Translations under genes and position numbers: made by a program | NCBI GenBank assembly: GCA_029582265.1 | Contig: CM055820.1 | Coordinates: forward strand, 16,388,485-16,452,484 | Reading direction: 5' to 3' | From: Zoroaster sp. YZ-2022 | Taxonomy: Eukaryota; Echinodermata; Asteroidea; Forcipulatida; Zoroasteridae | DNA length: 64,000 nt | In this document: positions 20,201 to 60,885 of the stretch, in pieces | How positions within the stretch are numbered: the stretch's first letter is position 1 | How the letters are laid out: each line of letters begins with the position of its first letter | Notes under the pieces: generated by a model | The model's input: only the letters and a program-made list of their open reading frames with translations | Databases searched by the model: none | What the model was told of the DNA's origin: nothing

Positions 20201-21265
20201 CATTTATTGCTAAATCATTTTGTTTCTCCACTTTTGCTATTTGACTGATTGGTGTAGGTGCGTTGATATTAAAATTTAAACCGTCTTCTTTTTCATACAT
20301 TGACGTTCTTTTAGCGTTTTGTATTTTTACTTTTTCAATCTTAATATTTCTTTCTATCGATTCTTATGTTTATTATAACAACGCAATGCCCATCGCAAAC
20401 AATCATCGTCATCTTTGTTTTGTATGTTGATGCAAGCTTTTTTATCTCTTATAAAAGCAGGTAGCTCGATATAAGAACCGCCGCGAAAAGGTCTATACTT
20501 TGATATTCTAATATCCATCTGTGAAATACGAAAAAATACCCATCCACTACCTTTTTGTTCAGTCGTTTCTATAACTGATTTAATTTTTGAAAAAGCTTTA
20601 GCTAAACTCTCTTCAATCGTATCTAAATTTAATATTATTATTTGTTCTGAATTATGAAGAGGAATTGTTGAATATTCAATTTCTTCATCTACACTTTCTT
20701 TATAAAATGTTATCCACATGTATAGTTGAAACTTGTACCCACCTAATTCTTCTAAATCTAAAGTCAACTTGTTAATCAACTTTTGTTTTACACCCTTATA
20801 AAAATCATCTATATTACTTTCTCTTTTATGACTTTTTGGTACTGTCAGCGTTCGCGTTCGTAAATACCTTCCACCATTTACAACCCTCTCATCAAATTCT
20901 AAATCACCTCTACGCCAAGTTCCTACAATTTTATGTAAATCCTTTCGTAATCGCCCAACTCCTACTAAAGGAATACCTTTCGCTTCTATTTCAGCAGCAA
21001 GTTCAAGCTTCGTTAATTTCTTTAATGGCTTAGCTTTAAATCGACGTAAATAATTTTTTATACTCAAGTAATATCCACGTTTATCTATTCTACCCTTGTT
21101 GTTTTTAGTAAAAATTATTTTACCAAAGTGTTCGTTTTTACGTGAGTACTCTTTCATTTCTCTCTTTGACATTTGTGATAAATATTTTCTATTTTCCATT
21201 TTCTCTTTATTATTTAACAAGATAATATTTTTTCTATTTTTCAATTTTATAAGTATCATTTTCAA
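14220..21265 (-). pseudogene. Polinton protein-primed family B DNA polymerase, split by a 3 kb insertion
   Basis: Read leftward: 21265-20354 (N-terminal region, with a SAP-like LTKLELAAEIEAKGIPLVG), 20300-19538, then, beyond the inserted element, 16518-15026 and 15095-14220. All catalytic signatures are present: Exo I VIYADFES (about 19805), motif A LDANNLYGHAMSQPLP (about 15450-15510), motif B NNSVFGKTMENV (about 15000) and motif C YTDTDSLIL (about 14700-14730). Also visible are a Cys/His finger (CERCLCGFTKERILLKHLKEC) and HCHITGKYRGAAHNKC. Breaks are a frameshift near 20350, a stop near 16410, a frameshift near 15060 and the 16523-19537 insertion. The true start may be the ATG near 21198 rather than 21265. 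The family is DNA_pol_B_2, which uses a protein primer to replicate the linear Polinton. Confidence 0.93.
16523..19537. mobile_element. 3.0 kb inverted-repeat DNA element inserted in the polymerase gene
   Basis: The left end GGCTCATTTCATCAGGTTGG matches the inverted right end GGCTCATTTCACCAGGTTGG for about 26 bases. Both ends are bordered by ATAT, so the target duplication is ATAT, or TA with an extra terminal T on the repeat (Tc1/mariner-like). Excising the element with one copy of the duplication leaves the polymerase frame open across the junction. Inside there is no recognisable transposase. A 131-residue ORF (16981-17376) matches nothing I know. The motif TCGACGTAAC or its variant GATGTAAC recurs at least eight times. 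Confidence 0.75.
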
Positions 21266-21427
21266 TGTATTATCTCAATTTTATAAGTATCATTTTTTTC
21301 CTTCTATTTATCTTTTCATGACGTCATCAATCTTTTCATAATGTCATACTCCCCTACTACTACCCAACAAAAACATTTTTAATTCATTTTTGGGGTATGT
21401 GACTCAGAAGACCTCAATCCTATACTA
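21205..21427. repeat. Polinton terminal inverted repeat, polymerase side
   Basis: This stretch is the reverse complement of 59310-59490 and, in its inner part, of 60025-60119. The outer end is CCTATACTA (21419-21427). It holds the AT-rich ATACTTATAAAATTGA units that precede the polymerase start. Polinton TIRs typically begin AGT and are hundreds of bases long, as here. Ngaro sequence follows at once. Confidence 0.9.
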
Positions 21428-24050
21428 TTGCTTGGCAGGCCAAAAGCCAATTTAGTTCAGGTTCAATCCTTAGTGAGGTCATTGAATTTTGTGTGTAAAG
21501 CTGGGGCGTGCGTTTTTATGGCGTCTTATTGCACTGACAGTGGGCCTCAAGCAGCCGCATCACAGGGTGCACCTTTCGCAAGGTGCGAAGCTTGATCTGG
21601 TCATGTGGCTGTCATTCTTGCAGCGCTATAACGGTCTTACTACATCCCTGCGGGAAAATTGGGATTCATATGTTGCTCTTGAATTATTCACTGACGCTGC
21701 TGCATCCATCGGCTATGGGGCTTCTTTCCAAGGGAGATGGGTTCAAGGGCGTTGGCCATCAGGGTGGCTGGCTAGTTCTCCATACATTGCTTTAGTGGCG
21801 CTCCTCTGTTGGGCCCCTTGTTGACGAACTGCAGGGTGTTCCGGTCCGGTAACATCGCTGTTGTGGGGATCATAAATAAACAAACGTCGCCTTGTATGCG
21901 CATTTTGCAATTAGTGCGGGCAATGGTCATGCAATGCCTCAAATTCAATATAATTTTTAAATGGTGATACCATTTGAACAGTGTTGGTAGCAAACTTTAC
22001 TACCATTCAAAGGCATAGAGGGTCCATTGATTCACCACTTGGAAGTATCCACAAAAGGTTTTGTATTAGCTGTACTACCATTTGGAAAGATCCAAGCAAG
22101 GTTTTGTATTAGCTGACCTACCATTCAAAACCAATTGGGGGAATCAATACTGTACACAGTTTTTTCACCATTCAAAAGCGAATGGTTTCAATTGGTGGAT
22201 CAACTTGTATGAAAAAGGTACCAGAAGTAGTTAAGGCAGTGCATATACCAGGTGTTCATAATAACATAGCTGATGCACTCTCGTTTTCAGATGGGGCGTT
22301 TTCGGGCCCTAGCTCCAAGGGCCCAGCCAGGCATGACCCCTTTACCTCAGCTGTCCCACGTGTTTTAGCAGCGGAAATAGGACGGTTGTTAAGTTTGGCA
22401 TTCGCCAAGAATACACACACGGTTTACATGTCGGGGTGGCACGCCTTTTGTCATTTTAAAGCACATCGGCTGTGTCAACTGTTTCTCCGCAAGATTCATC
22501 TCATGGCTGTCTTTACATTACTATTCTCCGTCCACAATTAATACATATGTGGCAGGGGTGGGGTGTTTTTGTAAACTTAGGGGATGGGTCGGTCCAACTA
22601 ATAATTTTATTGTGGCAAAATTGCTGGTATGTTACAGGCGGGACGGGGCTAAGCAAGATGAGCGATTGCCGATTTCATTGTCACTTTTGTGCCGACTTTT
22701 AGAGGCGTTGCCCAAGGTATGTGCTTCCCAATTTGAAAGCACCATGTTTCGGGCAGCTTTTTTCGGCTTTTTGCGCGTTGGGGAGTTTACCGCCAATTCC
22801 ACTTACCATATGCAAGAGTCTATGTTCCGGTGTGTGTTTCTGTGGCAATCAATCGAGCATGTCTGTGGTCCTGGCCATACGTCATTCTAAAACTAATCAG
22901 GCTGGCCCTCCACAGTGGGTTCATATCGCAAGGCTGCAGGTTGTGGCAATCTGCCCAGTTACTGCTTTGCAAGGGTATTTGCAAGCACGGAAACAATTGT
23001 CCGGCCCCTTGTTCTGCCATGAACTTGTTCTGCCATGAACGCGGTGATCCCCTCACACGGTATCAGTTCACAGCAGTGCTTAGGGCTGCTTTGTTGTTTT
23101 TGTGGGGTGGCGGGCGATCGCTATCGGTCCCATTCTTTCCGGATGGGAGCTGCGTAGCGTTTCATACCCCTATCCCCGCTTTGATCATTTTGCATTTAGG
23201 GACGAATGATTTGGTGTCTCATGACTTGTTCACTTTGAGACAGCTCATCACTTCGCCCTTGGGCATTTGCCGACAAAGGTTTCCGCAAGCTATTGTAGTT
23301 TGGTCAGACATTCTCCTGAGAACGTTCTATTTTGGTGCCACTTCTCAAAAATCCATTGAGAACGTACGTAAAGCAGCCAATCGTTGGGTGAAAGCGCAGT
23401 GTAAAAAGCTTGGGGCTAGGGTACTGCAGTACCCGCAGTTTTTCTGGTCGGATGCTAGCCTTTATCGTTTTGATTGGGTCCATCTGTCTCCAAAAAGGGC
23501 TTTCCATTTTCGAGGCTAATCTGATTTTGTATTCTGTCTGTGCTGTAACTGGTGCACTTTTGTGGGTGTTTTTGTTCTGTTCCTTTGGGTGCGCTTCTCG
23601 CGTGTGGCAGTTTTGGGCGGAATAGCACATTAACTTCCCACTTTTGGTGCAGCAGTTCTGGCAATTAACAGTTACTGCAGTCCTAGAAAATTAAACTTAA
23701 TAATATGGAGATTTTAGTCATCCGTTATTTACATGTTATCAAGTGTTCATAGTGCCGGGACCTCCCTCGGGCTAGTCCAGACCACAGCTTACACATGTGC
23801 ATTATACTGTTTGTTATTGTCAACATTTAAATGTATGTTTTAATAACTATCCCCATTGGGGGTTAGTGGTGCCAGGTCTGGGTATACAGAGTCTTGGGTA
23901 CGCTGTATAGGTGGTCCCAGCTGGTTTTTCTCTGAGGTCTTGGGTATCTCAGGGTGTGTGTTTGTTTGTCTTTATCAAATGCTGTTTAATGACAAATCCG
24001 GTTTGCCCATAGTTTGGTATTCCGGTGGTTGATGGTGTCAACCTCTTTGA
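21428..24050 (+). pseudogene. Ngaro/DIRS retrotransposon, 3' half: RT thumb, RNase H, tyrosine recombinase, SGNH-like domain
   Basis: The coding remains follow one another in shifting frames: the end of RT (LVQVQSLVRSLNFVCKA), RNase H (LELFTDAAASIGYGASFQG, then VHIPGVHNNIADALS), part of a tyrosine recombinase (FRAAFFGFLRVGEFT, CPVTALQGYLQ), and a C-terminal segment like SGNH hydrolases (ILHLGTNDL, DWVHLSPKRAFHFRG, ending 23519). The recombinase HxxR region is missing, so there is an internal deletion near 23110-23180. The segment 23520-24050 is a noncoding 3' region with AATAAA near 24049. An SGNH-like domain next to a YR fits Ngaro elements. The 5' half is at 59011-59307. Confidence 0.8.
21961..22230. 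mobile_element. 270-bp MITE with TTAA target duplication inside the Ngaro RNase H
   Basis: TTAA at 21957-21960 and at 22231-22234 flanks a 270-bp noncoding block. Leaving one TTAA restores the RNase H frame leading into VHIPGVHNN. TTAA is the target of piggyBac and Kolobok elements. Internally AAGGTTTTGTATTAGCTG appears twice with ACCATTC repeats. The terminal repeats are weak, so the superfamily is undecided. Confidence 0.7.
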
Positions 24051-25497: not shown

Positions 25498-26122
25498 TGT
25501 GAGAGGGACGGGGGAAGGGGGCGTTGAACATCAAGGGAAAAAGGGCTAGGGCACGCAGGTTCTCTGGATTTCACGTTGATCTTTATTGGAGTAATGGCCT
25601 GTAAAGTCAGGGCAGGCAGTGAAAAAGAGTTGCTTAGTTACAGTTTTCTTTCATTTCTTTTTGTTTAGATGACTCAGCAATTGTGTTAAAACATAAGGCA
25701 GAAAAACCCCAAGCTAGGCAGTCCTAAGCACCGACCAAAGTAACGCGCAGCAAACCCACCCCATCACATAAATCCGCCTGCAATCTCTACCCAATTGCCA
25801 AGTTTACATCCATAAAAATTATGGTTATTTGTCTAAAAACATAAAGGGCCATAACTTAAATATCTTCAAATGAGGCCTACATTATATTAATCAGAAACTC
25901 ATGTCTACAGCACATACTGCACATGGTCATACTACATATGCCAGCATATACACTTGTGCTCCTCTTAACACAACATTTGACATTGAATTCATACTAATTT
26001 TCTATCTCAAAAATTCACTTTTTTCATAGCCTCTAAAATTCCATAAGTACCACTAAACAAAACTATAATAATTTGCTGTCAAAGTGAAATAAGTCCCTTT
26101 GTCATGCTCTAAGTATATAATT
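25498..26122 (-). repeat. Gypsy 3' LTR
   Basis: Starts TGTGAGAGGGACGGGGGAAG on the plus strand and ends near CTAAGTATATAATT. It is nearly identical to 33982-34425 plus 35326-35515, with scattered substitutions and a 6-base indel. As the element is on the minus strand this is its 3' LTR. Confidence 0.85.
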
Positions 26123-26167
26123 AAAAAAATTGAGAAAAACGGTCTGGTAGCTTGCCACGAGTAGTCC

Positions 26168-29100
26168 TCACTGGATACCTCCTGGGTATGGACGTATCTG
26201 TTGATCCATCAGATCGGCTAGTACTTGGCACTGCCTGCTCAGGGGAATTGCCCAATGCAATCGCTGCAGGCTGCTTCTGGTCATCATTGAGGGCTTGGAC
26301 TGTTGTCTCCGAGATACCATCTGGAAACGGGGAATGTCGGTACTGTCTCCATCGCCTGGGAGTTTCACACCCGCCTCAGGTTCCACAACCAGATTGCGGG
26401 GCCTGAGGATATAACCCCTAGGTGTTGACTCAGAGTTCTCACTCGAAGGGTCCGATGAAGAGCTGCCATCAGCGTGCCTATCCGGGAGCCGTGGACAGTG
26501 CTTAATGTGAGACCGATGAACAACCTTCTCATGTCCTGACTGATTGCGGACGACGTATACTGGCTGATCCTCATATGGCTGCTTAACTACCAGGAAAGGC
26601 TCCATCTCCCAGTAGTCCTGAAGCTTCTTCCGCCCCTGACGAGCATGCTTGCAGATGAGGACATACTGGCCAATTCCCAAAGGCTTTTCAAAAACACTCT
26701 TTCCCCTCAAGGCCTGATGAGCCACAGCAGCCTGTTTGGTTTTCCGGGTTGCTATCCTGCAAGCCTCCCTCAGTGCCTTCTGGTGTCTCCTCATGTACTC
26801 TGACAAGCCGGCATGATTCCCCTTGGGTGCTTCCCAGCCTAAGTGGAAACGGCCATTCCGCCCATACATTAGGAAAAATGGCTCAACGCCTGTGGTAGAG
26901 TGTTCCGTGTTGTTGTACGTGTACACCAGGGCAGGGAGATACTGTGTCCAGTGCTGCTTCTTATTCTCCGGAAGGGTGGACAGCATACCATGTAAAGTGC
27001 GGTTGAAGCGTTCGCACTGACCATTCCCGGCCGGATGGTACGGGGTAGTGTGGCTTTTCTGGATGCCGTACAGTTCACATAGCTCCCTGATTATCTGGGA
27101 CTCGAAGTTCCGACCACAGTCAGAATGAAGACGGAGAGGACATCCAAATGGCAGAGAGATGTGCTTCACAAGAGCCTTGGCTACTGTGACAGCTCGTTGA
27201 TCTCTGGTTGGGATGGCCCAGGCATATTTTGTAAAGACATCCGTAACAATCAACACATTTTCGAAGCCATCCTTAGATGCTTCCAGGACAGTGAAGTCTA
27301 TTGCGATTGTCTCCATAGGGGCCGATGCGTTCAGTGACGAAAATGGTGGCCTGGTCTGGTGTGTAGGTGGCTTACTAATGGCACAACGTTGACATCTAGT
27401 ACACCAGTCTCGAACAGAAACCATGCCTCGCCAGTAGAATTGGGACCATATAAGCCGCCAAGTGCGTTTCGGGCCAAAGTGGCCCGCGTCATCATGGAAC
27501 CTACGCATCACTTCCTCCTGGAGAGATTCCGGCAGTACTAGCTGAAGCAGCTTCTGGTGCTCACTTGGAGAAGTCGCCTTGCGACAAAGCAGCCTGTCTT
27601 TGATCATTAACCTCTTCCAGTCTCGAAGTACAGCAAGGCTTTCTTTGCTCAGGTTTGCTCGTTCAGCACGGTCAGGTTTGCGCCCCTGTCCGACAAAACG
27701 AACCACATCTGCTAGGATTGGATCATCTTTTTGTGCTTTCTCCAGATGTTCTGCCGTATATCCAGGTAGACATTGGACACCACCGCTCTGACAGGTTTCA
27801 ATACAATGGGCAAAAGCGATTGGAAGCTCTACACCTGGCGAATAACCTCCAAGACATGCCAGTATCTCCGATGAATGGACCTCAATAACCTTCGGCGCGA
27901 TAGTGATACCTTCAACATCTTTCTCCTGCTCAGGTTTATCCATACGAGACAGTGCATCGGGAGCTTGGTTGTTTCTCCCTGGACGATAACAGAGTTCGTA
28001 GTCAAAAGAACTCAACTGCTGCATCCACTTCATCTCCGTACATCCAAGATTGGCCTTGTCAATGAAAAGCAACAGATGATGATCGGTCACAACCACACAT
28101 TTATTGCAGACAAGATAATCTTTGAATACTTCTGTGATGGCCCACTTTACAGCCAGTAGTTCCAGCTTAAATGCACTGTAGCGGCCACTCCGTTCTGCAG
28201 GTCGCAGCGTTCGTGAAGCATATGCTATGACACGGCTGTTGTCGTCATCATCCTGTTGGAACAAAATTGCACCCAGTCCTGTCGTACTGGCATCTGTCTC
28301 GACACGGAACGGCTTGGAGAAATCTGCATATGACAGAATGGGCGAAGTAGTGACACAATCAACAAGTCGATGGAATGCCTGTTTCCCGGCCTCGTCGAGG
28401 TTGATTGGGCCTTTGATGGGCTTGGTATTTCTGCGCTTCTGCTCACCCTTTAAATAACGAAAGAGTGGTCCTGCGATGGAGGCATAACCTCAAATAAAAT
28501 GCCGGAAGAAGCCAGTGAACCCCAGGAATGCTCGGACATCCTTCACAGAGGCAGGTTCAGGCCACTCCCTCACAACTTTGATCTTTTCAGGGTCCACAGC
28601 AACCCCACTGCTGGAAACTCAGTGCCCCAGGTACTGAACCTCGGTCTTCAACAGGTGACATTTGGCTGGCTTCAGTTTAAGGCCGTGGTTTCGCAGCTTG
28701 GTGAACACGCCATCGAGGTGGGCTAGGTGGGTGTCAAAGTCTGGAGAGTACACAATTATATCATCCAAGTAAATAAGGACGTTATTGAAGCACTGCTCTC
28801 CAAGACATCGCTGCATCAAACGTTGGAATGTTGCAGGTGCATTGGACAAGCCAAAAGGGAGGCGGGTGTAGTCATATAGCCCAAATGGTACTGCAAATGC
28901 CGTCTTCTCAACATCGGGATGTACGGCTACCTGGTAATATCCACTGGTCAAGTCTAAGACACTGAAGAACTTCGCCCCACCAAGGGCCTGCAGGGACTCC
29001 TCTATTCGAGGTAAGGGAAATGAGTCCCGATGTGTCAGCTGATTAAGTCGGCGGTAGTCTACACATAAACGAATGCTGGAATCTTTCTTCTGGACCACCA

Positions 29101-30299
29101 CTACTGGAGATGCCCATGGGCTGCCGCTCTCCCTTACAATCCCTTCCTCCAACAAACTATGGATGTGGTCTCGTACTGCCTTGTACTGTGAGGGAGGGAG
29201 AGGTCTATGTCTTTGACGAACAGGGTGAGCCGTCCCTGTATCAATATGATGAACAATAGTATCCGTGTATCGTAAGTCCTGGGCATGACGAGAGAATGTA
29301 TCCCGATGTTTCTCCAAGAGTGCTGTCACTCAAGACTTCTGATATGGGGTGATGCCTGAGCCAATGTCTACTTGGTTGTCCTCCACGTCTGTCTTTTCTG
29401 CACTGATGTTTCCTATAATAACTGATGGAGGGTCATTGGCTTCTTTCTCACGGTCGTGGACAACAGATCCCAAGCAGAGGGTGCCAAGCTCAGCCGATTT
29501 TGGGATGATTACGTCCGAGTTGGTCTCATTATAGAGTGTCACACTGAAGCTGCCAGATTCAACCTTTACAAGACAGGAAGGGATCGCAACTCCCATAGGA
29601 GTACCTCTGCTTGCTGTTGGCTCCAATACAGCCTCATATGCATTGCCTCCTGGACCTTCGTGTCCTTTTGCTTTCATAATGGCTACATGACGAGCTGACA
29701 ATACAACAGACTGCCCCCCAAGGTATGCTTTACCAACTTTACCATCCTTGGCTCCGAACTCTAGAGTCTGTCCAGTGGTCTTCAAGGCTCTCTGCCAAAT
29801 TGGGTCTTGGGTCGGCCAAGGTATCTTCGTCAGATGAGGCTTGTGACTTGAGCTTAGGTCTTCCCAACACTGCTGCAGCACATTCATTCCCAAAATTCCA
29901 TGCACACCTCCCTTTGTCTGCGTAGCTGGAGACTTCTCCCGGAGAACAAGCACAACTCAAGACCTGATAGTTTGTCCGATGGCATGAATATCCGTCTCAA
30001 AGTAGCCAACATAGGGCATATTGGCACCATTCGCAGAGACAAGGGTGAAAAGCTCAGGGATCGGTCGGAGCCTGAACCCGTTGGGGGCAAGGTGGGCATT
30101 AAAAAATGATTCACCAACAGTTGTCACTTGGGAACCTGGGTCAAGCAAGCCGGGAACTGTAACTCCAGAAAACATTACAGTAACAGAGTAGCACTCTCCG
30201 ACTGTTTTTGATAGAAACTTCTTATCCACTGGGGTAGTCGAGCCATCTACATTAACCTCCGCCGTAAGGCTCGCTACAGCAGAGGCTGGCCATTTAACT
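26168..30299 (-). pseudogene. Gypsy pol: protease, RT, RNase H, integrase; one frame with four TGA stops
   Basis: A single reading frame of about 1370 codons runs leftward, interrupted only by TGA at 29957-29959, 29330-29332, 28619-28621 and 28490-28492. Domains in order: aspartic protease with VPGLLDPGSQVT, where the usual DTG or DSG triad reads DPG; RT with LCVDYRRLNQLT, PFGLSNAPATF and the catalytic YLDD (LIYLDDIIVYS); RNase H (AYASRTLRPAE, YRPGRNNQAPDALSR); integrase with AIDFT, HSDCGRNF and NGQCERFNRTL as the D, D and E positions; then a chromatin-side tail (VVHRSHIKHCP). No frameshift is seen. Each stop sits where a CpG transition of CGA would place it. Confidence 0.9.
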
Positions 30300-32869
30300 C
30301 CGGCTGTGATTGCTGACTTGGTTCTGGTCTACCTTCAGGCTGCTGTTGTGGGTATTGGGGCGCTTGTGCTTCAGGTACAAATCCTCTGCCTCTTGGTCTG
30401 TATCTGTCATTGGCCACATTTCTGTAGGGGCAGTTTCGGGCGATGTGTCCCGGGAAGCCACACGAATAACAAGGTCCTCTGCGTCCTGGATGCGTCCTGG
30501 GAGGGGCAGCGACGGGATGGGGAAACTGCTGGAAATAAGGCGAGCCCATTTGTGGTTGAGGACTGGCATTCTGGTAAGGATAGCTCGGGAGGTAGTTTCG
30601 AGGATAGCCTGTTGGAGGCCTGACATCTTGGACAGCCTTCACTACCTTGTCAGTCATCTCCTTAAGAGCCCCCAGAAGATTGTCTGTGGCTGTTGCTTTA
30701 TCTCCCAACTGCATGGCGGCTTGATGAGCGGTAGAATTCATGGTCGCTCTAGATCTTGCATCCTCCTGTCCTTCCCGCCTCAAGACGTACTCCCGTAGTT
30801 CTCGGAAGGATTTCACCGCATCCCTTGGTACTAAGCCTGTGCGTTTACGGTTATTTTTGTAAACGTGTAACCGTTTCTGAAACGGTCGGTTACACGTGTA
30901 ACCGTCCGTCTCTCAGTCAAAAATGGTTGATTAAAAAATAGGTTGTTCTACGAACCGGTAGCACAATAGTCATGTATACTCATGGTGATCGAAACATTTT
31001 GAAAGGAATATAATCAATGTATGCCATACAGAATTTAATAAAATCAACTGATTTTCTCAAGTTAAAAATATCAAATGAAAACAACTTAAAAATAAATAAA
31101 ACACAACCTTTTTAGTCGTGTGTTCGTGTTATTATTTCATATTTAAGACATGTGTTTGCATCTTTCATCACATCATGCTTCAGCTTTGAGGCAGAAAAAG
31201 TAACTACGTTTACAAACATTTAGTAGAAAAGTATCTTACATGTATACTGTATTTAATCCTTTTCATCCAGGGTATCATAGTAGTATAATCCTACATGAAC
31301 ATTAGTCAAACCATCCTACACGATGTGTAGTTTGGTGGCAGCAATAACTGGGTAGCTTTCTGGTATTTATCTCGAAATTTCTGCACCATTTTTATTTTGC
31401 TGTTCCGTTCCGTATCACTATTTACGGCATTCGAATGTCGAGCGTAGTCCCGCTGGTTGCCTGCTTTCTGCACAACGCACATGTAATCACTACAACGGCA
31501 ACCAACGAAGCGATGACTCATCGCCTGCCACGCGTAACGAATTTTCCTATTGGCTCCTTCCATAGACTACGATATAACCAATTTTCCCATTGGCTCTCTG
31601 GTACACGCATGGCATAGACTACGATCTACGTAGTGGATTGTGATGTCGCTGGCGCTAAACGCGTTGCAACGGTTTTTCAGAAGTTTTGAATAAATCTGTG
31701 TGTATCGAGGTCCGCTCACTAAAACTGACAATGACCAGACCATTTTCGCTCACGAACAATAAAGTTTTTAGGTTTCTGTTTCTGTCTGTTTACCAACGAT
31801 TTTTGCTTAATTGTGCATTGTGTTTTGTTCTTCAAGATTCATACCTCGGCGTATAAGCCGCACCGCGTATAAGCCGCAGGCAACTTTTACCGTGTCAAAA
31901 TCAACGTATAAGCCGCGGCTTATATTTCGGAAATTACGGTACATGATAACACAGATTAACTGAGACTGTAACTATAATAAGCAACAAGCCCTGCCGATTG
32001 GAAAATGTATCACAAAAAAGAAAAGAAAACAAGTTTGTTATCAGCGACAGCGAGATCGCAATTTACAGGAAAATAGCTTCAACCGCAGAACCTTCTGAAT
32101 TGACTTTATTTTACGATTAACTGAATCGTAAACGTGTAACCGGATAAACGGTCGGTTAACCGTGTAACCGGCACAGGCTTAGTTGGTACATATCCCTGCA
32201 TGTATTTCTGATGTACGTGTCATTCAGTCCCTCTATGAACTGTTCTGTCAGGGCCGCGTTTGGGTTGGAGTACAGCTTCTCATCCCGGCTTGTGAGTCTC
32301 ATGAAGCGCTTCTCTAGATCAACTGCAAAATCTCGAACTCCTTCGCCATGGCGTTGTTTTCTCTCAAGAAAGAGGCGCTGGAGTTCCCCAACAGCCAACT
32401 TTTCACCATAGGAGTTCTTTATGAACAACAACACTTCCCCAATGGTTTGCCCAGCGGCCAATAGGGCTTTGACCTCCGCTTTCGGTATCCCACGCAGGTA
32501 GTCCACAAGAAAGGCACCCATCTGCACTGCAGGTATGGAATACCGCTGAAAGGCGTCCTCAATGGATGTGATGAAATCACGCACTTCACAAGGCTTGCCA
32601 TCGAAGGGAGTAATCTTGCGTTCGGGAGCCATCACCAGCTGGGTGCGAGGTTTAGCCAACATCTCTAGTAATTTGTCTGTAACCGTAGATGGAGTCTCAG
32701 AAGCAGGGTTGGGGTCCGGCATCAGTACTGTAAACTCATGATCTCCCCAGCCATCTGGAGATGGGCCAACAAGTCCATTCTGGGAGGGAACTACAACCAT
32801 GCTGCCATCTTCTTTGCTGTACAGAAGTCCCTGTGCCTTAGGGTGCTCAGTTTGTAGTACCCCCAGCAT
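30274..32869 (-). pseudogene. Gypsy gag, interrupted by a hAT element
   Basis: The N-terminal part (32869-32190) encodes a capsid-like region with LLEMLAKPRTQLVMAP, ITPFDGKPCEVRDFITSIED and QRLFLERKQRHGEGVRDFA. The C-terminal part (30823-30274) has REYVLRREGQEDARS, a Pro/Gln-rich stretch and one CCHC zinc knuckle, CYSCGFPGHIARNC. The hAT element 30832-32181 separates them; the two parts are in different frames, so an extra indel has occurred. The stop at 30274 overlaps the pol frame, as in many Gypsy elements that use frameshifting. A LINE fragment abuts the gag start at 32869. Confidence 0.85.
30832..32181. mobile_element. hAT-type element (1350 bp) in gag
   Basis: Ends TAAGCCTGTGC and its inverted complement GCACAGGCTTA, flanked by CTTGGTAC (30824-30831) and GTTGGTAC (32182-32189), an 8-bp target duplication with one mismatch. 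Subterminal GTGTAACCG and CGGTTACACG repeats are numerous, and CGTATAAGCCGC occurs three times near 31850-31920. There is no transposase frame, so it is non-autonomous. Confidence 0.8.
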
Positions 32870-33425
32870 TCATTCATTCATTCATTCATTTATTAACACA
32901 TATTCCAATGTTGACAACAAGAATGTTGTTACAAATAATTACACAATATCAAGAGGTCCTACAATATGCAAAGACAAAATTAGTAACATGAACAGACTAA
33001 TTATGAGAGAAAAGCTTGTCAACATTGAGGAAAAGAAGAAGCCGAGGTTTTTATTCCTTTCCCTACCCCCACCCCTCCCCTTAATTACAAAATGACAAAG
33101 TTACTGGACAAAAACAGAAGACTACATTCAACAATAACATTGGCAGGAGATCAGACCAAATAATAAGTCAATTAAATAGCATCATTGAGCAACTTAAATT
33201 TAAGTTTTTTTGTAAACGTTTTAAGAGAGCGAGACTGTTTGACATCATCAGCCAGACTGTTCCAGAATTTGATTCCACATTGTTGGGGACTATTTTTAAA
33301 TAGAGAGGTACGATTAAAATGTTGATACAAATGTTTCCTGGATGAGCTTCTGGCCCATCCTCTGACTTCAATGGGAACTGGTGTACACCCTCCTTACCCT
33401 TTACTTTAACGTAATTTACCATTTT
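32870..33425 (-). mobile_element. 5'-truncated LINE, 3' end only
   Basis: Read leftward, one frame gives the typical C-terminal end of a jockey/CR1-type ORF2 (SPQQCGIKFWNSLADDVKQS, then SLKTFTKKLKFKLLN). Next comes a 3' UTR and a tail of (CATT)n on the plus strand at 32868-32893. The tail abuts the gag ATG. Confidence 0.7.
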
Positions 33426-33981
33426 TTCTCCTTTTTTTTCCGACTCTAATTTTTATTTACTTTTATATATACACCGGATGCCTTTAAGCAATTTTATTTT
33501 CACTTTTAACCCCCTTTTTTTTTTTTTTACATCAAAGAGTTCTTTAACTGACCTCTAACCTTTTTTTTAAGTTACACTAATGAGAACATTTAAGCAATTT
33601 AATTCACACCTTTAATAAAAAAAAAATTTTTAGTTACACTAATGAGTACATTTAAGCAGTTTAATTTGCACAATTACTTTCCTGTTACTTTTTTTTTTTT
33701 TTTTTTGACAATGCACCTTTAAAGACAGCTTACACAATTGCAGCCAACAAGTGAAATCTCAGAGAGTGAAAAAACACAACCAACAGGCTCCCTTTAATAC
33801 AACATTTTCTTCTACACCTGATAATAAATCAACTATTCCTTATTTTTTTATTTTTTTATTTTTTTAATTTAAAAAAAAAAAGTTTTTTTTAAGTGTACGT
33901 GTGATTTCCTACCGCTACCACAGCTTCTTCTTTATCTGAGCTTGATTTCTTGATCATCCTCCAAATCCTGCCGACTATGCT
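33426..33981. repeat. Gypsy leader region, low complexity with tandem repeat
   Basis: Long T and A runs (33508-33529, 33689-33708, 33841-33890). Two copies of GTTACACTAATGAG followed by ACATTTAAGCA lie at 33572 and 33633. No PBS could be assigned with confidence next to the LTR edge at 33982. Confidence 0.5.
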
Positions 33982-35515
33982 TGTGAGAGGGACGGGGGAA
34001 GGGGGCGTTGAACATCAACATCAAGGGAAAAAGGGCTAGGGCACGCAGGTTCTCTGGATTTCAGGTTGATCTTTATTGGAGTAATGGCCTGTAAAGTCAG
34101 GGCAGGCAGTGAAAAAGAGTTGCTTACTTACAGTTTTCTTTCATTTCTTTTTGTTTAGATCATAGATGACTCAGCAATTGTGTTAAAACATAAGGCAGAA
34201 AAACCCCAAGCTAGGCAGTCCTAAGCACCGACCAAAGTAACGCGCAGCAAACCCACCCCAGCACATAAATCAGCCTGCAATCTCTACCCAATTGCCAAGT
34301 TTACATCCATAAAAATTATGGTTATTTGTCTAAAACATAAAGGGCCATAACTTAAATATCTTCAAATGAGGCCTACATTATATTAATCAGAAACTCATGT
34401 CTACAGCACATACTACACATGGTCATGTGGGGAACCGGCCTTATTTCATATATTCACTTCTAATGTTTACAGTACATGGTCGACCGCAGAAAGTCTATTT
34501 ATAGCACAATAGCAGAATGTATTACTTTTTGGTGACCTTTGTGCTTCCCGTGCAAAGACGGTTTTCACCATATCACTCCACTTAACAAATAATCCAAAAA
34601 CATTACCAAATACTAGCTTTTGTATAAGTTTCACTCCTAGATTGTATAAATGGGTATTATATTTAATTATCACTTGATTTGACTTTATTATGCTTGGCAA
34701 GTTCATTGCTACGGGAATAATCACTAGTTTTATATAAGGCGGATCAATTCAGACGTGTTGTCACCTCATTTTTCGCTCTCCGATGGTTGTTTTTGTAAGC
34801 AAACATACATCACGATTTCAGGCGCTATCTTTCTTAATTTTGTTCTGTACTTTGTGATGGAGAGGACTTTTCCTTATAACTGACTACTATCATATTCCAG
34901 GACTGGGTGAGTGTGGTTTTTATTTAATAAATATGATCTTGCTAAGTGTAATTTGCGGGAAGTTTTATCTAACTTATGTAAGTCAACTGGGTCATGTAGC
35001 GACTATGCGTTGTACATAGGCCTAATTATGTCATTGATCATGTGAGTTGTTGTTTCTGTGTGCATTGCGTTACACACATTGAACTAACGGAGTACTAGTC
35101 TAGTGTGTACATGATAAATACATTTTTGTCTAAACCTTAATGTTATGACATTTATACTTTTCTCTGTATTTTTCATAGGGTGTTTGTTACTGTTATTATT
35201 GTTGACTCAATAAATCAGAATCCAGATGAATGCAATCTAATCTATACTACTGAGTCGGTGGTCGCTTCATTCATAATTCCTTGGCTGATACTACGCAAGT
35301 AGTGTACCACATCAGTCATAGTACTACATATGCCAGCAGTACAAACACACTTGTGCTCCTCTTAACACAACATTTTTGAATTCATACTAATTTTCTATCT
35401 CAAAAATTCACTTTTTTCATAGCCTCTAAAATTCCACAAGTACCACTAAACAAAACTATAATAATTTGCTGTCAAAGTGAAATAAGTCCCTTTGTCATGC
35501 TCTAAGTATATAATT
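33982..35515 (-). repeat. Gypsy 5' LTR, split by a solo LTR
   Basis: The pieces 33982-34425 and about 35318-35515 together match the 3' LTR at 25498-26122. The interruption is the 886-bp block 34426-35311. Part of the same LTR (CCTGTAAAGTCAGGGCAGGCAG) appears again at 35561-35583 just outside. Confidence 0.85.
34426..35311. mobile_element. solo LTR of another retrotransposon (886 bp)
   Basis: Begins TGTGGGGAACC and ends GTACCACA, that is TG to CA with inverted tips. It contains AATAAA-like signals (CAATAAATCAGAATCC) near its end, as an R/U5 region would. It lies within the Gypsy LTR. The flanks GGTCA and TCAGTCA give only an imperfect 5-bp duplication. The TGTGG to CCACA tips resemble BEL/Pao LTRs, but the family is not proven. 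Confidence 0.65.
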
Positions 35516-36045
35516 TAGAAATAATAAGTTCAAAATTGGATATAAATAATGGCAAACTTTACCTGTAAAGTCAGGGCAGGCAGGGGGGGGGGGGTATTAT
35601 TTCACTTTTTTTGACTTTTTTATATTCTGCCCCCCTCAAAACATGTACAGGCCTATTAGAAAAAAGAATAAATCATTAAAATAAAAATTTGATATTTCTA
35701 ACCCCCCTGTACATGCCCCCTGAAAGTTTTGCTTGAAGGGCGCCCTCTGTTGTCAGTTTAACATAAAGGTTCCTTGACTCCATATGCACTGTAGAGACAT
35801 ACATAATGGTGGTTACCAGACTGTATGTGATTATGTACCACACATATAATCTAGAATGGTTGCTAATCAGCTGTTTGTTGACATGGTTGATGGGTTTTAA
35901 CTCAATTAAGACAATTATATATTTAGGTTAGTAAATGTATATACATCATATCATCTAAAAGGATTGTTTGCTGGCAAAGTTGGACAGTGACAGAAGTTAT
36001 TATCTGTGACCTTAGTTGGGTAAGTTTGTTTTTAATAATAATATT
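35516..36045. other. intergenic before the gap
   Basis: Noncoding; includes a 12-base G run (35583-35594) and a short fragment of the Gypsy LTR. No gene seen. Confidence 0.5.
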
Positions 36046-43529: not shown

Positions 43530-45210
43530 TTTATGTGGCTGTGTGCTTGAACTCTTATGATGAATTTCTGTTAGCCATCACATTATTTTTGATAGTTCCT
43601 ATATATGCCAAGGGCACAATGATTGTGATGATGTTTGTATTACAGATATGGTAATTATGGAGATAGTGATGATGTTTACAATACAGACTGAGACGTGATA
43701 ATTATGAGAACAATTTCGCAGTGAGATTGGTTGTATTTTCACCATCGATGCCCAGGTATCGATGCAATGGTACGAAGATGCAGTAGTAATAACAATAATA
43801 ACAATGTGTGGACTTGTATAGCGACGTATCACACCAACTGAGTGGTGCTCAGGCGCATATTATTACCCCTGCTCATAAGGCTCATAAATCATTCCTGGAA
43901 CCATCTCAGCTCCCTGGGAGTATGCAATGCTCAATTGCTGGGCCATTACAGGCGCATATGGTGAAAGCTAATCAACCAACTCTGCCCTCACAGGTACCCA
44001 TTTAACCCCTGGGTGGAGAGAAGCAATTATGGTTAAGTGTCTTGCTCAGGATTTACAAGTGTCACGGTAGGGATTCGATTACCCAATTCTGCTGCTAACA
44101 CCAGCACTTGAGTCCGTAAGCTAGCCCGCTCGACATGACTTGCTCCTTTATGAGGAATGTACGAGTACGAGCACGGATTTTAATATGCACCATGTCCATC
44201 ATATCCACCATTATTTCATTAGCTGTTATGTTTTGTTTTATAGGTATGAGAAATTAAACATCACTGCCAGTATTTTTACTTGCATCAACACCATGTACAG
44301 TTCAGCCTGATTCCATTTCCAATATTCACAGCTACAAAGCATTGCCAAGGTAGAGTAAATCTTGATTGGTTCAGATTTTTTTTTTTTTTATCCCATTTAT
44401 TATTATTTTTTAAATTTTTGTTTATATAGAAAACTTAGTTTATGTAAATATTTGTTTTTCTATAAAACAAAATCAGATTTACAGAAACAATTTCTCATTT
44501 AGAAAAAAATAAGTTGTGCATTCAAGTTTTTTCCCCCTTGTGCATGCTTAATGTTAAATTGTCCATATTAAAGGGACAACATCACGATCATGGAATCGGT
44601 GTCCTTGTTTAAGATGAACACAGTAACTGAAACTCTGGATCATTTATTCAGCAGCATTGATAATTATGACCTTATCATGTGGGGTGTTATTTTCAGTCAC
44701 CGAGGTAATCTAAAACTAGCACTCCGATTCCATGTCCTGTTGATCATGACCGTTGTCCTCTTAAATGGAAAGTACAACAGCATAACAGCTGTTATCGGTA
44801 ATATTTATTTACTTTGAATGAAGATCGTTTAATAATGAATATGTTAAAGTTTGAGCTCAATGGGGAGTCTAAGTCATGAGAAAAGTGTGAAAACCCTTCA
44901 TAATTCTTTAGGAAAATATTAGTAAATGTGTATATATTTTTTTTTCAGTTTTCTTTAAAATAAGAACACAATAAGCAGAATAATTGTTTAACTGCATCAC
45001 ATCCAGTTAGCTGTAGGTAATAATTGTGCAATCAAGTAATAACCAGTGATGTACCTTCCTTTAACATCATATCCAAACATTCATGTGAACATGTTTTTTC
45101 ATTCCTACAGTGCCCTAGCATCTCTTGGTCAACTCCCAGGTATACATGAGCCCATCAATCATCAACATCAAAGTCAGTTGCACAAGATCAACAAGTGGAG
45201 TCAGAGCAAC
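43530..45210. repeat. tandem duplication, copy 1 (carries a SINE)
   Basis: Runs from TTATGTGGCTGTG to the GATCAACAAGTGGAGTCAGA end and is repeated directly at 45211-46495 with about 90 percent or better apparent identity. It is longer than copy 2 by the inserted SINE (43763-44160). It contains inner segments such as GTGTCCTTGTTT near 44600 and TCTTGGTCAACTCCCAGGTA near 45121. Confidence 0.85.
43763..44160 (-). mobile_element. tRNA-derived SINE in copy 1
   Basis: Absent from copy 2, whose sequence is continuous across the site. On the minus strand the head at about 44150 has tRNA-like boxes (GCGGGCTAGCTTACGG and GGGTAATCGAATCCC), then a body, and a tail of (ATT/GTT)n at the left (43790-43803). 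The head shares CTGGTGTT, GACACTTGT and GAGCAAGACACTTAACCA-type strings with the SINE at 51600-51975. Confidence 0.75.
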
Positions 45211-46495
45211 ATTTTGTGTGGCTGTATTTAACGCTGAACTCTTATGATGAATTTTGTTAGCCATCACATTATTTTGATAGTTCCTATAGCCAAGGCACAA
45301 TGATTATTGTGATGATGTTTAATACAGACATGGTAATTATGAGATAGTGATGATGTTTACAATACAGACGTGATAATTATGAGAACAATTTCCAGTGAAT
45401 TAGTTGTAATTTCCACCATCGATGCCCAGGTATCGAGTACGAGTACGAGTACGAGTACGGATTTGTAATATGCACCATGTCCATCATATCCACCATTATT
45501 TCATTAGCTGTTATGTTTTGTTTTATAGGTATGAGAAAACATCACTGCCAGTATTTTTACTTGCATCAACACCATGTAGAGTTCAGCCTGATTCCATTTC
45601 CAATATTCACAGCTACAAAGCGTTGTCAAGGTAGAGTAAATCTTGATTGGTTCAGATTATTTATTTTTTATCCCATTTATTATTATTTTTTTATTTTTGT
45701 TTATATAGAAAACTTAGTTTATGTAAATATTTGTTTTCTATAAAACAAAATCAGATTTACAGAAACAATTTCTCATTTAGAAAAAATAAGTTGTGCATTC
45801 ATGTTTTTTCCCCTTGTGCATGCTTAATGTTAAATTGTCCATATTAGGACAACATCACGATCGTGGAATCGGTGTCCTTGTTTGAGATGAACACAGTAAC
45901 TGAAACTTACTGGATCATTTATTCAGCAGCATTGATAATTATGACCTTATCATGTGGGGTATTTTTTCAGTCACTGAGGTAATCTAAAAACTAGCACTCC
46001 GATTCCATGTCCTGTTGATCGTGACCGTTGTCCTCTTAAATGGAAAGTACAACAGCATAACAGCTGTTATCGGTAATATTTACTTACTTTGAATGAAGAT
46101 CGTTTAATAATGAATATGTTAATGTTTGAGCTCAATGGGGAGTCTAAGTCATGAAAAAAGTGTGAAAACCCTTCATAATTCTTTAGGAAAATATTAGTAA
46201 ATGTGTATATATTTTTTTTCAGTTTTCTTTAAAATAAGAACACAATAAGCAGAATAATTGTTTAACTGCGTCACATCCAGTTAGCTGTAGGTAATAAATA
46301 ATTCAGTAATTGTGCAATCAAGTAATAACCAGTGATGTACCTTCCCTTTAACATCATATCCAAACATTCATGTGAACATGTTTTTTTTCTCATTCCTACA
46401 GTGCCCTAGCATCTCTTGGTCAACTCCCAGGTATACATGAGCTTCATCAACATCAAAGTCAATTGCACAAGATCAACAAGTGGAGTCAGAGCAAC
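45211..46495. repeat. tandem duplication, copy 2
   Basis: About 1285 bp, a direct repeat of 43530-45210 without the SINE. It has a (GTACGA)n stretch at 45435-45460, where copy 1 has only two units. Confidence 0.85.
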
Positions 46496-47410
46496 ATATA
46501 CCTATGGACACAACATCACATGAGCCTATATGAGTAAGTGAAATACTATTTGGCTGTCAACACATCACATTTCACAAAAAGTTATTTAATTTAAATTGTA
46601 CAGATATTACTGTAAACAACCCTACATGTATATGTAACTTGTATCTCCCTTTAAAAAATAAATATAATGTTTATATCAAAATTTTGTTTTTTCTCTAGTA
46701 TGAACTTGCACATGCTGATTTCATGTAGCCTTATAATTAGTTTCTAAGCAATATTAAGAAAATACACTTTTGTGCAATTTAAAGGAAGAAAAAAGTAATT
46801 ATCCTTCTGAGAGTTTGTCATTTGCAGTGTGTGGGTGTGTGTGTGTGTGTGCGTGTACTTACACACCATTCGTTGTGGGGTACCAAACACAATGGAACAA
46901 TGGTACCCCACAAGGAATCTATAGAAATTCTGGTACCCACTGGAGAATTCTATAGAAAAGGGATAATAGAACGAACAAAGGAATACCCCACAATCCGCAT
47001 GTGTGAGTGTGTGTGAACATGTACATGGTTCCTTGTGGGGTCCAAAACACAATGGAACAATTGGACCCCAAGGTAACTATAGAAAATCTTGTACCCCACA
47101 GGAGAATTCTAAGGAAAGGGATAATAGAACAAACGAACAAAGGATACCCACAAATCAATGTGTGTGAGGGTGTACGAGCACTGGCAAGGTTGTGGGGACT
47201 TATAACTAAAGGGAAGGCAAGAACAGTGTCTGTGGGGACATTTTCATGTCCCCACAACGTTTAGGTCCCGATTCGCTTGTCGAATAACGTGTAAATGTCC
47301 CCACAATTACGATGCGTGACTGTGTGTGTGTGTGTGTGTGTACTATAGCACTAACAATTAGTCAAAGTAACTTTACATGTGTTATTCAACATAATCTTTT
47401 TTGTAAGATT
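46496..47410. repeat. (GT)n tracts and a two-copy minisatellite
   Basis: GT-rich tracts at 46826-46850 and 47321-47340. Between them a unit with TGTGGGGTACCAAACACAAT, GGAGAATTCTA and GGGATAATAGAAC occurs at 46872-46990 and again, changed, at 47034-47150. The whole stretch is noncoding. Confidence 0.7.
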
Positions 47411-52172: not shown

Positions 52173-52551
52173 ACTAGTTTGTAGCCCCATAAATGTGGCA
52201 CGGATACGCCCCCCGCATATCCTTAGCCACAGAGTTTGGTCTCATTCCGCTAACAGTGATAATTCGAAATTCAGGCGCTGAAATTGACGATATTTGCGAC
52301 TATTTTGACAGTCTAGATACGTTCATACATGTTTTAACTATCTAGGCGCCCAAAAATAATTGATTTTACTTACATTTTATATTTCCTGACATATCTGCTT
52401 GAAAAATTACAAGACGATCGTCATTGTGCCGGGTTTCAACGAGGACGGCCATCTTGAATGTATGAAGAGTGTGAACGGGAAAACAACTTGCGCGCGCAAC
52501 AATTTTACGACGGCTGTTTTATGTGTGCACATACTTGCTGTATTTTAGCGC
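52173..52551 (-). repeat. inverted duplication, left arm
   Basis: Reverse complement of 54523-54901 at roughly 80 percent. Shared strings include ACTAGTTTG, GCCACATTTATGGGGC, TATCTAGGCGCC and TGTGCACACATAAAACAGC (inverted). It contains the exon-like ORF 52374-52452. Confidence 0.85.
52374..52452 (-). CDS. putative first coding exon (ATG to strong splice donor)
   Basis: Minus strand: ATG at 52452 in AAGATGGCCG, a YY1-like start context found at many animal promoters, then 26 open codons (MAVLVETRHN onward) to AAAT/GTAAGTAAAA, a strong 5' splice site. In the mirror copy (about 54621-54695) the same start and the same donor are visible, but the frame is broken by a stop, so selection may have kept this copy. 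Protein family unknown. Confidence 0.4.
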
Positions 52552-52771
52552 GCGAATTATTCCGTTTCAGGGTTGCACGTGTTGTCGGTAGTCAGAGCAT
52601 TTTTTTGTGCTAAACATGTGATATAACTAATTTAAAAATCAAATATATATAACAAAAATAAATAAATAAAACATGTCCGGTTCCTGCATTTCAATTGTTA
52701 CTTTTCCTATAATAAGTAAGCATAATAAATGATTGGATCGAAAGCTAAGGCCACCCTCCGATTTAATTTAT

Positions 52772-52805
52772 ATATATAATATAATATATATTATATATAT
52801 AATAT

Positions 52806-52890
<85 letters not shown>

Positions 52891-52925
52891 TTATTAATTT
52901 TATTTTATTTTGTGTGTGTGTGTGT
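52772..52925. repeat. (AT)n microsatellite followed by (GT)n
   Basis: AT dinucleotides with interruptions from 52772 to 52885, then TGTGTGTGTGTGTG at 52911-52926. It lies between the arms of the inverted duplication. Confidence 0.95.
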
Positions 52926-53337
52926 GGGGGTTCTTTGTTAATGGTGAAAAGAAATGTGCAAAAAATCCACAATATAATTCAGCACCACGAAAAATGTTAA
53001 AAATACCGTTCCAGTGACAGGCAGTAATGGACCGATCGAATCAAAATGAAGTGTTTCATGTTTGAGGATATAAGCTGATACGATACTAGATTGCATATTG
53101 TTGTTTAACAAAATGATAATAGTAATATTAATAATATTATCCAGTATTATTGATAATGATGGATGGTAAAATGTTAATAATTGGGACCGTTCCTGTACCC
53201 ATGGGTTTTATTGAGAAATTCCACGACCCCAAATAGCATAGACCCACACCACGCTTGAACCATCTTTGCAATTTGTCTGGTCCGAAGTGCTCATGAGTGC
53301 AATCTTTAAGTACACATGCTAACTTTGGTAAATAAAG

Positions 53338-53914
53338 CAAACAGGGGTCTACACATCTTAATTTAGAACAATTTAAAATAACCAGGGGGAAGACTCTTAT
53401 TAGAAAATAAACCACCTTTGTACTGGAAGTTACCGCCTTTATATTCTCACAAAACAGATAAACATGAAAAATTGTAAAAATATTACCTGTACTATATTAC
53501 ATAGATATTACATAGACTATATTCACAGATATTTTGTCAGATAAAACAATCATTCTGGTTTTTTTTGTTTTTTTAATTTTTTTTTATAGATTTACAAAAA
53601 TGGTGGAACCATTAATATTGTTATTATTAATAGTAATAGTGTATTAACACTATAATATTTCATATATTGAAATTATTAGTGAAATTTGTATGTTGTTTAA
53701 AATTACTATTTAAAATTAGTATTAAACTATTGTAATTAATAATAGACTATTTATTACATTATCATTTTATTTTAATAGACATTCTCTCTTGTTTTATGTG
53801 TACAATGTAAGTACAGTTAAATAACCTGGTACATGTATATGATAGTTAAAAGGGATGAACTTACCATGCAGTACGGTTAATTTGATGAAACTGCTCAATG
53901 TTGGTTTCTTGAAA
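53338..53914. repeat. 577-bp tandem duplication, copy A
   Basis: AACAGGGGTCTACACATCTT starts here and recurs 577 bases on; both copies end with CAATGTTGGTTTCTTGAAA or its CAATATTGG variant. AT-rich and noncoding. Confidence 0.85.
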
Positions 53915-54489
53915 CAAACAGGGGTCTACACATCTTAATTTAAGACAGTGCTGAAATAACCAGGGGAAGACTCTTATTAGAAAATAAACCACCTTTGTGC
54001 TGGAAGTTACATGCTTTATATTCTCACAAAACAGATAAACATGAAAAATTGTAAAAATATTACCTGTACTATGTACATAGATATTACATAGACTATATTC
54101 ACAGATATTTTGTCCAGATAAAGCAATCATTCTGGTTTTTTTTTTAATTTTTTTATAGATTTACAAAAAATAATTGGAACCATTAATATTGTTATTATTA
54201 ATAGTAATAGTAACGTAACACTATAATATTTCATATATTGAAATTATTAGTAAAATTTGTATGTTGTTTAAAATTACTATTTAAAATTAGTATTAAACTA
54301 TTGTAATTAATAATGAACTGTTATTATTACATTATCATTTTATTTTAATGAACATTCTCTCTTGTTTTATGTACAATATGCAGTAGAGTTAAATAACCTG
54401 GTACATGTATATGATAGTTAAAGGGGATGAACTTACCATGCAGTACGGTTGATTGGTGATGAAACTGCTCAATATTGGTTTCTTGAAAG
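53915..54489. repeat. 577-bp tandem duplication, copy B
   Basis: Direct repeat of 53338-53914 with scattered substitutions and small indels. It ends just before the right arm of the inverted duplication. Confidence 0.85.
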
Positions 54490-54522
54490 TTTATATCTGC
54501 GACATCACGTGGTCATATCTCT

Positions 54523-54901
54523 GGCGCTAAAATACAGTAGTATGTGCACACATAAAACAGCAATCAATAAAATTGTTGCGCTAAGTTGTTTTTCCGTTCA
54601 ACACTTTTTTCCGCACTATGGCCGTCCTCGTTGAAACTTGCACAATGACGATCGTCTTGTAGCCAATTTTCGGGCCTATATGTCAGGAAATATAAAATGT
54701 AAGTAAAATCACCATTTTTTGGGGCGCCTAGATAGTTAAACATGTAAGGAACGTATCTAGACTGTCCAAAATAGTCGCAAATATCGTCAATTTTCAGCAT
54801 ATGAATTTCCGAATTACTACCGTTAGCGGAATAAGACCAACCTGTGGCTAAGGATACGCGGGGGGGCGTGTCCGTGCCACATTTATGGGGCAAACTAGTT
54901 T
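54523..54901 (+). repeat. inverted duplication, right arm
   Basis: Mirror copy of 52173-52551. Its exon-like segment keeps the ATG and GTAAGT donor but has a stop. The two arms point away from each other. Confidence 0.85.
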
Positions 54902-57900: not shown

Positions 57901-59010
57901 CGGCGCTGATTTTTTCTCCGTTCACTGGCTCACGATGCGTGCCATATTACTATTACATGTACTGTAGGGATCTTGTTGTATGTTGAAGAAAATGTGATCT
58001 AAAAAGTATTGTTTTGTACACGATGGTGTTTTGTACGCGATCGGTGGCACTGTTGTATGATGTTGTGGATTTTTTTTTTTTTTTTTTTTACTACAAAATT
58101 TGATTTTTTAGTGAGGATTTTTTAATTTTTTCGAAGCTGATTTTTGACGGCGATTCCGTAATCAAGTTACAATAAAAACATGGCACAAATCCGTTTGGAT
58201 GTTTCAAAAGGATTTCAATTGAGAACTAGCCTGTATTCTCTATCATAATTTATCAAAGGTTTAGTATAAAGGACATTTCAAAAAATGGGTTTAGGTCCTT
58301 ACTATAATTTTAGTGCCCCCAGTCATTACTAAGGGTCCAGTGTTTGGGCCTTAATCACCTGCCTTTTCTGGCTTTAGGCAAAGCCGCTTGCTAAATCAGC
58401 CAAGGGGCACATTGCGCAGTCGACTACTGGAAGAAGAGGTTTTAGGTGATGCTTACATTGTCATATCAATTTTGTTTATTGAAAAGTGTACAGTACTTAC
58501 CGAAGGTCATAGGTCTTGAGTTCCTGAGGTTGCTCTTGTGGTAGTGGGTGTAAGATGTTTCTCACGTTCTGGCCATGTGCACGCATGCCGCTCTATGGGT
58601 AGTGATGGGCAGCGCTCTGACAGCATTTACCAAAAGTGTTGGTAATCCAAAGGCCATGCAACGACCAAAAAAAAACCTGGGACCTTTGTCTCATTCATCA
58701 TCTGTAGGGCAATGATTTTCCGTTTAGCGGAACGAAACGAATTAACGGAATTGGCCTCTTTCATTGTGCATTCATTTACATGTGGAAATAATGTCAAACG
58801 GAAGTGAAAAGATTTTTGTACACTGTTCTAATGGGCGAAACGGAAATGAAGATTTGTTAAATTGGAAAACTGACTTTTCTGAAACGGAAAATCATTGGCT
58901 TACATCTGTCTTTCCCACAAGGAAGGGGTCAATGCTTTCATTGGTAAGGTTAATGCAAAGTGAATTATCGTCATTTGTCGTAGGGTTTGCAGGCAGGCTG
59001 TAATGCATGG
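54902..59010. other. intergenic, no supported gene
   Basis: Short ORFs only, none with a recognised domain. Includes the strong hairpin at 56320-56432 and T runs near 58073-58092. GGGCTACT-type strings occur at 55850 and 57160. Confidence 0.45.
56320..56432. repeat. 42-bp imperfect inverted repeat with 29-base loop
   Basis: The left arm 56320-56361 (CAGCCTTTAGTCAAGGC to GTTACTGGCG) pairs with 56391-56432 with about five mismatches. GC-rich stem; the loop is 56362-56390. It could be a tiny MITE or a structured RNA. Confidence 0.85.
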
Positions 59011-59307
59011 CTTGCTGAGGCAGGCATTAAATCAGCTTTCGGCTCTTGCCAGTTTCCCTCGTGATTACTGACTTTTTGGTTTCAAGTTTGGGGCAAATTT
59101 TTATTTTGACAAGTGCCTGCGATGGATGTTCCATTTCCTGCTCGCTCTTGGGAAGTTTAGCACTTTTCTGGAGTTCCAGCTAGGTAAAGCAATCACATTC
59201 AGGTTTTGTCACATATCTGGATTGGGGTCGAAATCGACACTGTTCGAGGGCAGGTCCGGGTCCCACAGGTCAAAGTTCAACCACTCACAAGGCAGATTCA
59301 ACTCTTG
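59011..59307 (+). pseudogene. Ngaro/DIRS RT, 5' half, interrupted by the Polinton
   Basis: Frames give GIKSAFRLLPVS, a FYFDKC segment and FSTFLEF, then (after loss of the catalytic box region) GVEIDTVRGQVRVPQVKVQ. The last codons CAA CTC TTG join in frame to CTTGGCAGG at 21431, so this is the partner of the Ngaro half at 21428-24050. The Polinton TIR begins just after it. Confidence 0.8.
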
Positions 59308-59309
59308 AG

Positions 59310-60119
59310 TAGTATAGGATTGAGGTCTTCTGAGTCACATACCCAAAAATGAATTAAAAATGTTTTGTTGGGTAGTAGTAGGGAGTATGACATGAAAAGA
59401 TTGATGACGTCATGAAAAGATAAATAGAAAAAATCATACTTATAAAATTGAGATAATAAATTGAAAATGATACTTATAAAATTGAAAGCAATTAAATATT
59501 ATGTTGAATAATATTAAAGATGATTAGTCATGATTTTAAACTAATTTATAAAATTGAAAACGAGGATTAAAAAACCGAGTACATTTGTATAAAAATATAC
59601 ATTATATAAAATAAATAATCTAGATATTTATTTACTAAAACATCGCAACAAATATTACCTTGGAATTTTTCGTTGGTTAGTTATGATTATAAAGAATCTT
59701 TGATGATAATTATACATATTTACAGTTTAACTTTGAAAATTTTATAAACGTAAAAAGTTACCGCGATCACATTTATATATTTATGATGTTAAAAAGCAAA
59801 CATCATAAAATTACACATTAGATTGTAGACATATTGTCACATGGGTTTTTCCTTATTGTTATATACAATGGGCATTTTATAGCTACGATCAAAAATTTAC
59901 AGCTCTAATGTTGAACATGTTCATCAAGATAGGTGTGATTATAATTATAACAGCTACGATTTAAAAGAAGAAAAAATTATGAATTTTGGTTTTAATTGAA
60001 AAAGAAAAAAAAGAAAAGAAATCATACTTATAAAATTGAGATAATAAATTGAAAATGATACTTATACAATGTAGTTATAAAATTAAAAAATAGAAAAATA
60101 TTATCTTGTTAAATAATAA
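59310..60119. repeat. Polinton terminal inverted repeat, other end, with internal extra sequence
   Basis: 59310-59490 (TAGTATAGGATTGAGG, then CATACCCAAAAATGAATT, then ATGACGTCATGAAAAGATA) is the inverted copy of 21250-21427. The inner part 60025-60119 matches 21205-21300. The 535 bases between are extra here and are flanked by a repeat of ATACTTATAAAATTGAGATA, as if inserted or duplicated within the TIR. No gene is seen in them. Confidence 0.85.
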
Positions 60120-60121
60120 AT

Positions 60122-60780: not shown

Positions 60781-60885
60781 ATGTTATACACTAACGAGTA
60801 AACAGATCGTGTGAATGGCTTTTAAATGGTTCGTTAGAAAATGTAGTAAACTAAGCACGGTCAAAATGTATATTGCTCTATGCAC

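Follow-up and report, generated by a model that had tools for sequence, protein, structure and literature searches.

The window analysed here, a single stretch of 64,000 nucleotides, raises the question of why two ends of what appears to be one Polinton (Maverick) transposon face away from each other. A sequence-only reading of the window had taken the 37.9 kb between the ends to be host DNA and had left three causes open: a tandem duplication, a circle linearised within the Polinton or a scaffolding error. The ends do lie that far apart, but the sequence between them is not continuous: it contains a scaffold gap of exactly 500 N at 36046–36545, and its continuity rests on the join that the scaffolder made over this filler. 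Since this is the only N run in the window and falls between the terminal inverted repeats (TIRs), each Polinton end lies on its own contig, one on contig A (1–36045) and the other on contig B (36546–64000). We consider it probable, at roughly 85%, that the outward orientation of the TIRs is an error of scaffold order in which contigs A and B were swapped. With exactly 500 N between the ends, a scaffolding error is much the simplest of the three causes, and nothing in the window needs the other two.

The TIRs had been described as outward-facing inverted copies at 21205–21427 and 59310–59490, and alignment confirms this. The contig A TIR occupies 21238–21427 on the minus strand, with its outer end at 21427, and the contig B TIR occupies 59308–60120 on the plus strand. 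The reverse complement of 21238–21427 aligns with 59310–59487 over 190 columns with 176 matches, two substitutions and six gap runs of 1–5 nt each, including one where the alignment ends. The alignment has a local score of 309; 292 inverted segments taken at random from the window reached 99 at best. Over a wider span (21204–21427 against 59310–59520) the BLAST identity is 88.8%, with the inner part more divergent. The contig B TIR is the longer of the two, with an insert at about 59492–59996, after which the repeat resumes at 59997–60120; the insert measures about 505 bp and is flanked by direct repeats. The contig B end opens with AGTAGT and the contig A end is shorter by a few bases. Long TIRs are a defining feature of Polintons, and the (AGT)2 end motif is known from vertebrate Mavericks in one account of these elements (PMC8097293). 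No further TIR copy emerged from self-BLAST of the window, which gave only fragments of the same two repeats and weak (60–70%) matches.

Both TIRs abut fragments of the pol gene of a retrotransposon that we take to be a Ngaro element of the DIRS group (tyrosine-recombinase retrotransposons). The RNase H half and beyond lies directly outside the contig A TIR (21428–22365, plus strand), and the tail of the reverse transcriptase (RT) half lies directly outside the contig B TIR (58903–59307, plus strand). When the readings of the two flanks were joined into one query, with XX marking where the insertion lies, 303 proteins were retrieved at E ≤ 0.001, the best of which is 70% identical over 68% of the query. 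The 120 homologues listed of these 303 were used for placement on the window and for the junction counts; the organism names among those listed are of animals, and 112 of the 120 carry a precomputed PF00078 assignment. In tblastn with these 120 proteins (E ≤ 1e-3), matches to the RT tail fall at about 58.8–59.3 kb and those to RNase H and the residues after it at about 21.4–22.4 kb, so that both the RT and the RNase H of a DIRS-group element are represented. Neither half turned up a second time in the same search; the few other matches in the window, at about 28.4–29.2 kb, overlap a Gypsy RT. The two ORFs examined for a tyrosine recombinase (22113–22538 and 22393–22887) have no Pfam match. Just past the Ngaro matches, the ORF 22737–23516 matches a GDSL lipase/acylhydrolase family with an E value of 1.5e-6, below the curated cut-off.

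The sequence-only reading had also held that the codons of the two Ngaro halves join in frame, and two counts bear this out. Of the 120 homologues examined, 114 could be scored and six were too weak; in 109 of these 114 the anchors in the two flanks are spaced by exactly three residues, and in the other five by 5, 5, 5, 4 and 0. Forty homologues have both junction hits in a residue mapping at E ≤ 10, and in 36 of them the codons 59305–59307 and 21428–21430 (TTG) fall on a single residue; the remaining four gave −2, −2, 6 and −3, and 80 of the 120 lacked one or both hits. This same-residue mapping at both junctions is the pattern expected from a target-site duplication, which by this measure is at least 3 bp long. 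A 6-bp duplication (CTCTTG/CTATTG) had been suggested, and it can be upheld in part. The left copy is complete at 59302–59307 on the plus strand, and the right copy is only partly visible at 21425–21430: its TTG is clear, but the preceding three bases are also TIR sequence, so that only three of the six positions are certain. Taken with the tblastn placement, the codon register strongly supports the earlier proposal that both ends would be sides of the same insertion; the two TIRs are thus best read as belonging to opposite sides of a single Polinton insertion, or of copies of it, and not to independent insertions.

The greater part of the element that is visible lies on contig A (1–21427, minus strand) and comprises the PolB-side TIR, capsid homologues, an A32-type ATPase and a weak rve match. 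We accept that this element is a Polinton in which several of the defining parts are putative; it presumably continues beyond position 1 of the window, and self-BLAST of the window showed no second TIR on the contig A portion. The major capsid gene (3875–8761, plus strand) is split by a LINE at about 4250–7824, and its tblastn identities are 57–66% to P0001–P0003, the three of 39 queries that were listed. The longest capsid piece has 687 homologues at E ≤ 0.001; sources named for them include Mytilus edulis and bacterial MAG bins. Structure was compared through an AlphaFold model of P0001, a homologue that stands in for the broken gene of the window itself; the confidence of this model is low (mean pLDDT of 57.8). 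In Foldseek, run against a viral library as well, the model matches the double-jelly-roll capsids of PBCV-1, iridovirus, faustovirus, Sputnik and mavirus, with E values down to 1.1e-11 and query TM-scores of 0.34–0.49 among the best 50 matches listed. The homologues and this low-confidence model together indicate that the gene encoded a double-jelly-roll major capsid protein, as in other Polintons. The LINE that breaks it runs on the minus strand (4250–7824) and carries an RVT_1 match at 4750–6858 (E of 7.1e-28).

The adjoining ORF (8749–9264, plus strand) matches Pfam Pox_A32 with an E value of 1.7e-9 and a PHROG terminase with an E value of 6.9e-10, and supplies the A32/FtsK-type packaging ATPase expected of a Polinton. 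It is followed by integrase-like ORFs (13203–14217, plus strand), for which the Pfam rve match of 13510–14214 is weak (E of 0.0026, below the curated cut-off). Several pieces on the minus strand (14220–21274) are presumably derived from a PolB gene, as judged by motifs; they have no PolB family match in Pfam, and the region includes a weak endonuclease VII-like stretch (PHROG E of 0.00036, Pfam E of 0.0074). These PolB-like ORFs are broken up at about 16406–19496 by about 3.1 kb without an ORF of 150 or more residues. An adenovirus-type protease and a minor capsid protein had no Pfam match among the ORFs tested, a comparison that short or distant genes would escape; both genes may also be situated beyond the window.

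On contig B, the presumed Polinton interior extends from 60121 to the window edge at 64000. No Polinton gene was recognised there when 12 of the 15 ORFs of at least 50 residues were compared with Pfam and two with PHROGs (best E of 0.046). An overlap between the Polinton sequences at the left and right edges of the window would have helped to settle the contig order; none was detected beyond weak (60–70%) matches. Searches of viral_contigs with capsid, PolB and integrase queries confirmed no complete related Polinton. The capsid alignment matched a single 4.6-kb contig in genome_contigs, titled as an archaeal MAG (L001), and a PDB sequence search gave nothing for PolB and one match for the capsid alignment, with an E value of 0.15. 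A 16-base TIR pattern occurred in four viral contigs, which were taken for chance matches.

The following course of events would account for the arrangement. The pol gene of a Ngaro retrotransposon, the older of the two elements, would have received a single Polinton insertion, accompanied by a short duplication of the target, probably of 6 bp. The assembly would then have broken within the Polinton, leaving its two ends on two contigs, and scaffolding would have set contig A ahead of contig B with a 500-N filler. The true order would be contig B, Polinton and contig A (or, equivalently, the pair reversed), and each contig would stop within the Polinton shortly past the edge of the window. Read in the order B, A, the locus runs from the RT half of Ngaro through one target site, the Polinton and the other target site to the RNase H half; the Ngaro halves then meet in register and the TIRs pair inward. 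The Polinton parts sum to about 26.1 kb, which by arithmetic falls to about 19 kb once the LINE interval, the insert in PolB and the insert in the TIR are subtracted. This remainder falls inside the range of 12.7–24.6 kb given for intact vertebrate Mavericks (PMC8097293). The contig A part also holds the PolB side with no second TIR, which we count in favour of an order error. Fixed fillers of 500 N are described for joins of inferred order in two published assemblies (PMC9835750, PMC10942973), and in one benchmark of Hi-C scaffolders at least 74% of the misjoins made by SALSA2 and pin_hic were relocation errors (PMC8627104). Against an order error stands the stretch 60121–64000, which has no recognisable Polinton gene, whereas those of contig A can for the most part still be read; the window also gives no sign that either contig stops close by.

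It is unlikely that the present order is real, which would require either the tandem duplication of a segment exceeding about 55 kb and containing a whole Polinton or the excision of a circle and its re-integration through the Polinton. A tandem duplication with a unit of one Polinton plus 21428–59307 would leave the window order correct, the right end of one Polinton copy being followed by the left end of the next, and would give the same geometry, the same codon register and the same two joints. It is nevertheless decidedly improbable: the duplicated segment, together with one Polinton, would have to exceed about 55 kb, and the 500-N gap offers a simpler cause. No second copy of the flanks is present in the window either, though a duplication would place such a copy beyond its edges. 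Polintons carry long repeats and occur in multiple copies; the flanks of one insertion could have been separated, with a compatible geometry, by ectopic recombination between Polinton copies or by a circle that was excised and then re-integrated. This would take several events for which there is no direct evidence, and it gives no particular reason why the flanks should lie on one scaffold, 38 kb apart and in this order; we regard it as very improbable. The chance that two Polintons inserted independently into two Ngaro copies is slight in the extreme, even though both families are probably multi-copy. The breakpoints fall on the same codon and on complementary sides (36/40 and 109/114), and the TIRs differ by only two substitutions; on this codon register and TIR identity, independent insertion was rejected.

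Under the favoured reading of swapped contigs, the locus combines two known kinds of element. The inserted element resembles Polintons in its long TIRs, (AGT)2 end motif and probable 6-bp target site, and in its capsid of the double-jelly-roll family, A32-type ATPase and integrase-like and PolB-like ORFs; it differs in being split over two contigs and broken by other sequences, and in that the protease and the minor capsid protein were not found. The surrounding element resembles Ngaro in its RT–RNase H pol, homologues of which align across the insertion site, but this copy is frameshifted and partly deleted, and its tyrosine recombinase has no Pfam match. Ngaro elements inserted into endogenous virophages have been described in Cafeteria (PMC8547959). 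Two similar kinds of element are nested in that description too, with the nesting reversed: here the virus-like element lies inside the Ngaro. The suspected error is akin to the relocations counted in the scaffolder benchmark (PMC8627104) in that a contig is misplaced within its scaffold; it differs from those in being suspected from a split transposon and not from a reference.

Biologically there is nothing unusual in a Polinton nested within an older Ngaro, and the case serves mainly to flag a probable assembly error. If the order error is true, a transposon split between contigs exposes wrong contig order from sequence alone. The signature, a pair of TIRs that face outward on either side of an N gap of fixed size and have flanks continuing each other in frame, would lend itself to screens of scaffolded genomes. 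If instead the present order were true, the window would represent a large Polinton-linked duplication, with a virus-like transposon marking the joints of a large genomic repeat.

The sequence between the two Polinton ends contains further repeats. A Gypsy-type element at 25498–35521 has a long pol ORF (26171–28489) and flanking direct repeats in pairs of 95.7% and 93.1% identity. Its closest database protein is 51% identical among the 7980 candidates scored, which were those sharing most words with it, and the organism names among the matches listed are of animals, as the host itself presumably is. A direct repeat of about 1.05 kb with two copies of 94% identity lies at 44159–46497. At 52173–54899, a 0.58-kb tandem pair (91%) lies between inverted repeats that measure about 380 bp and share 85% identity; this structure is possibly a DNA transposon.
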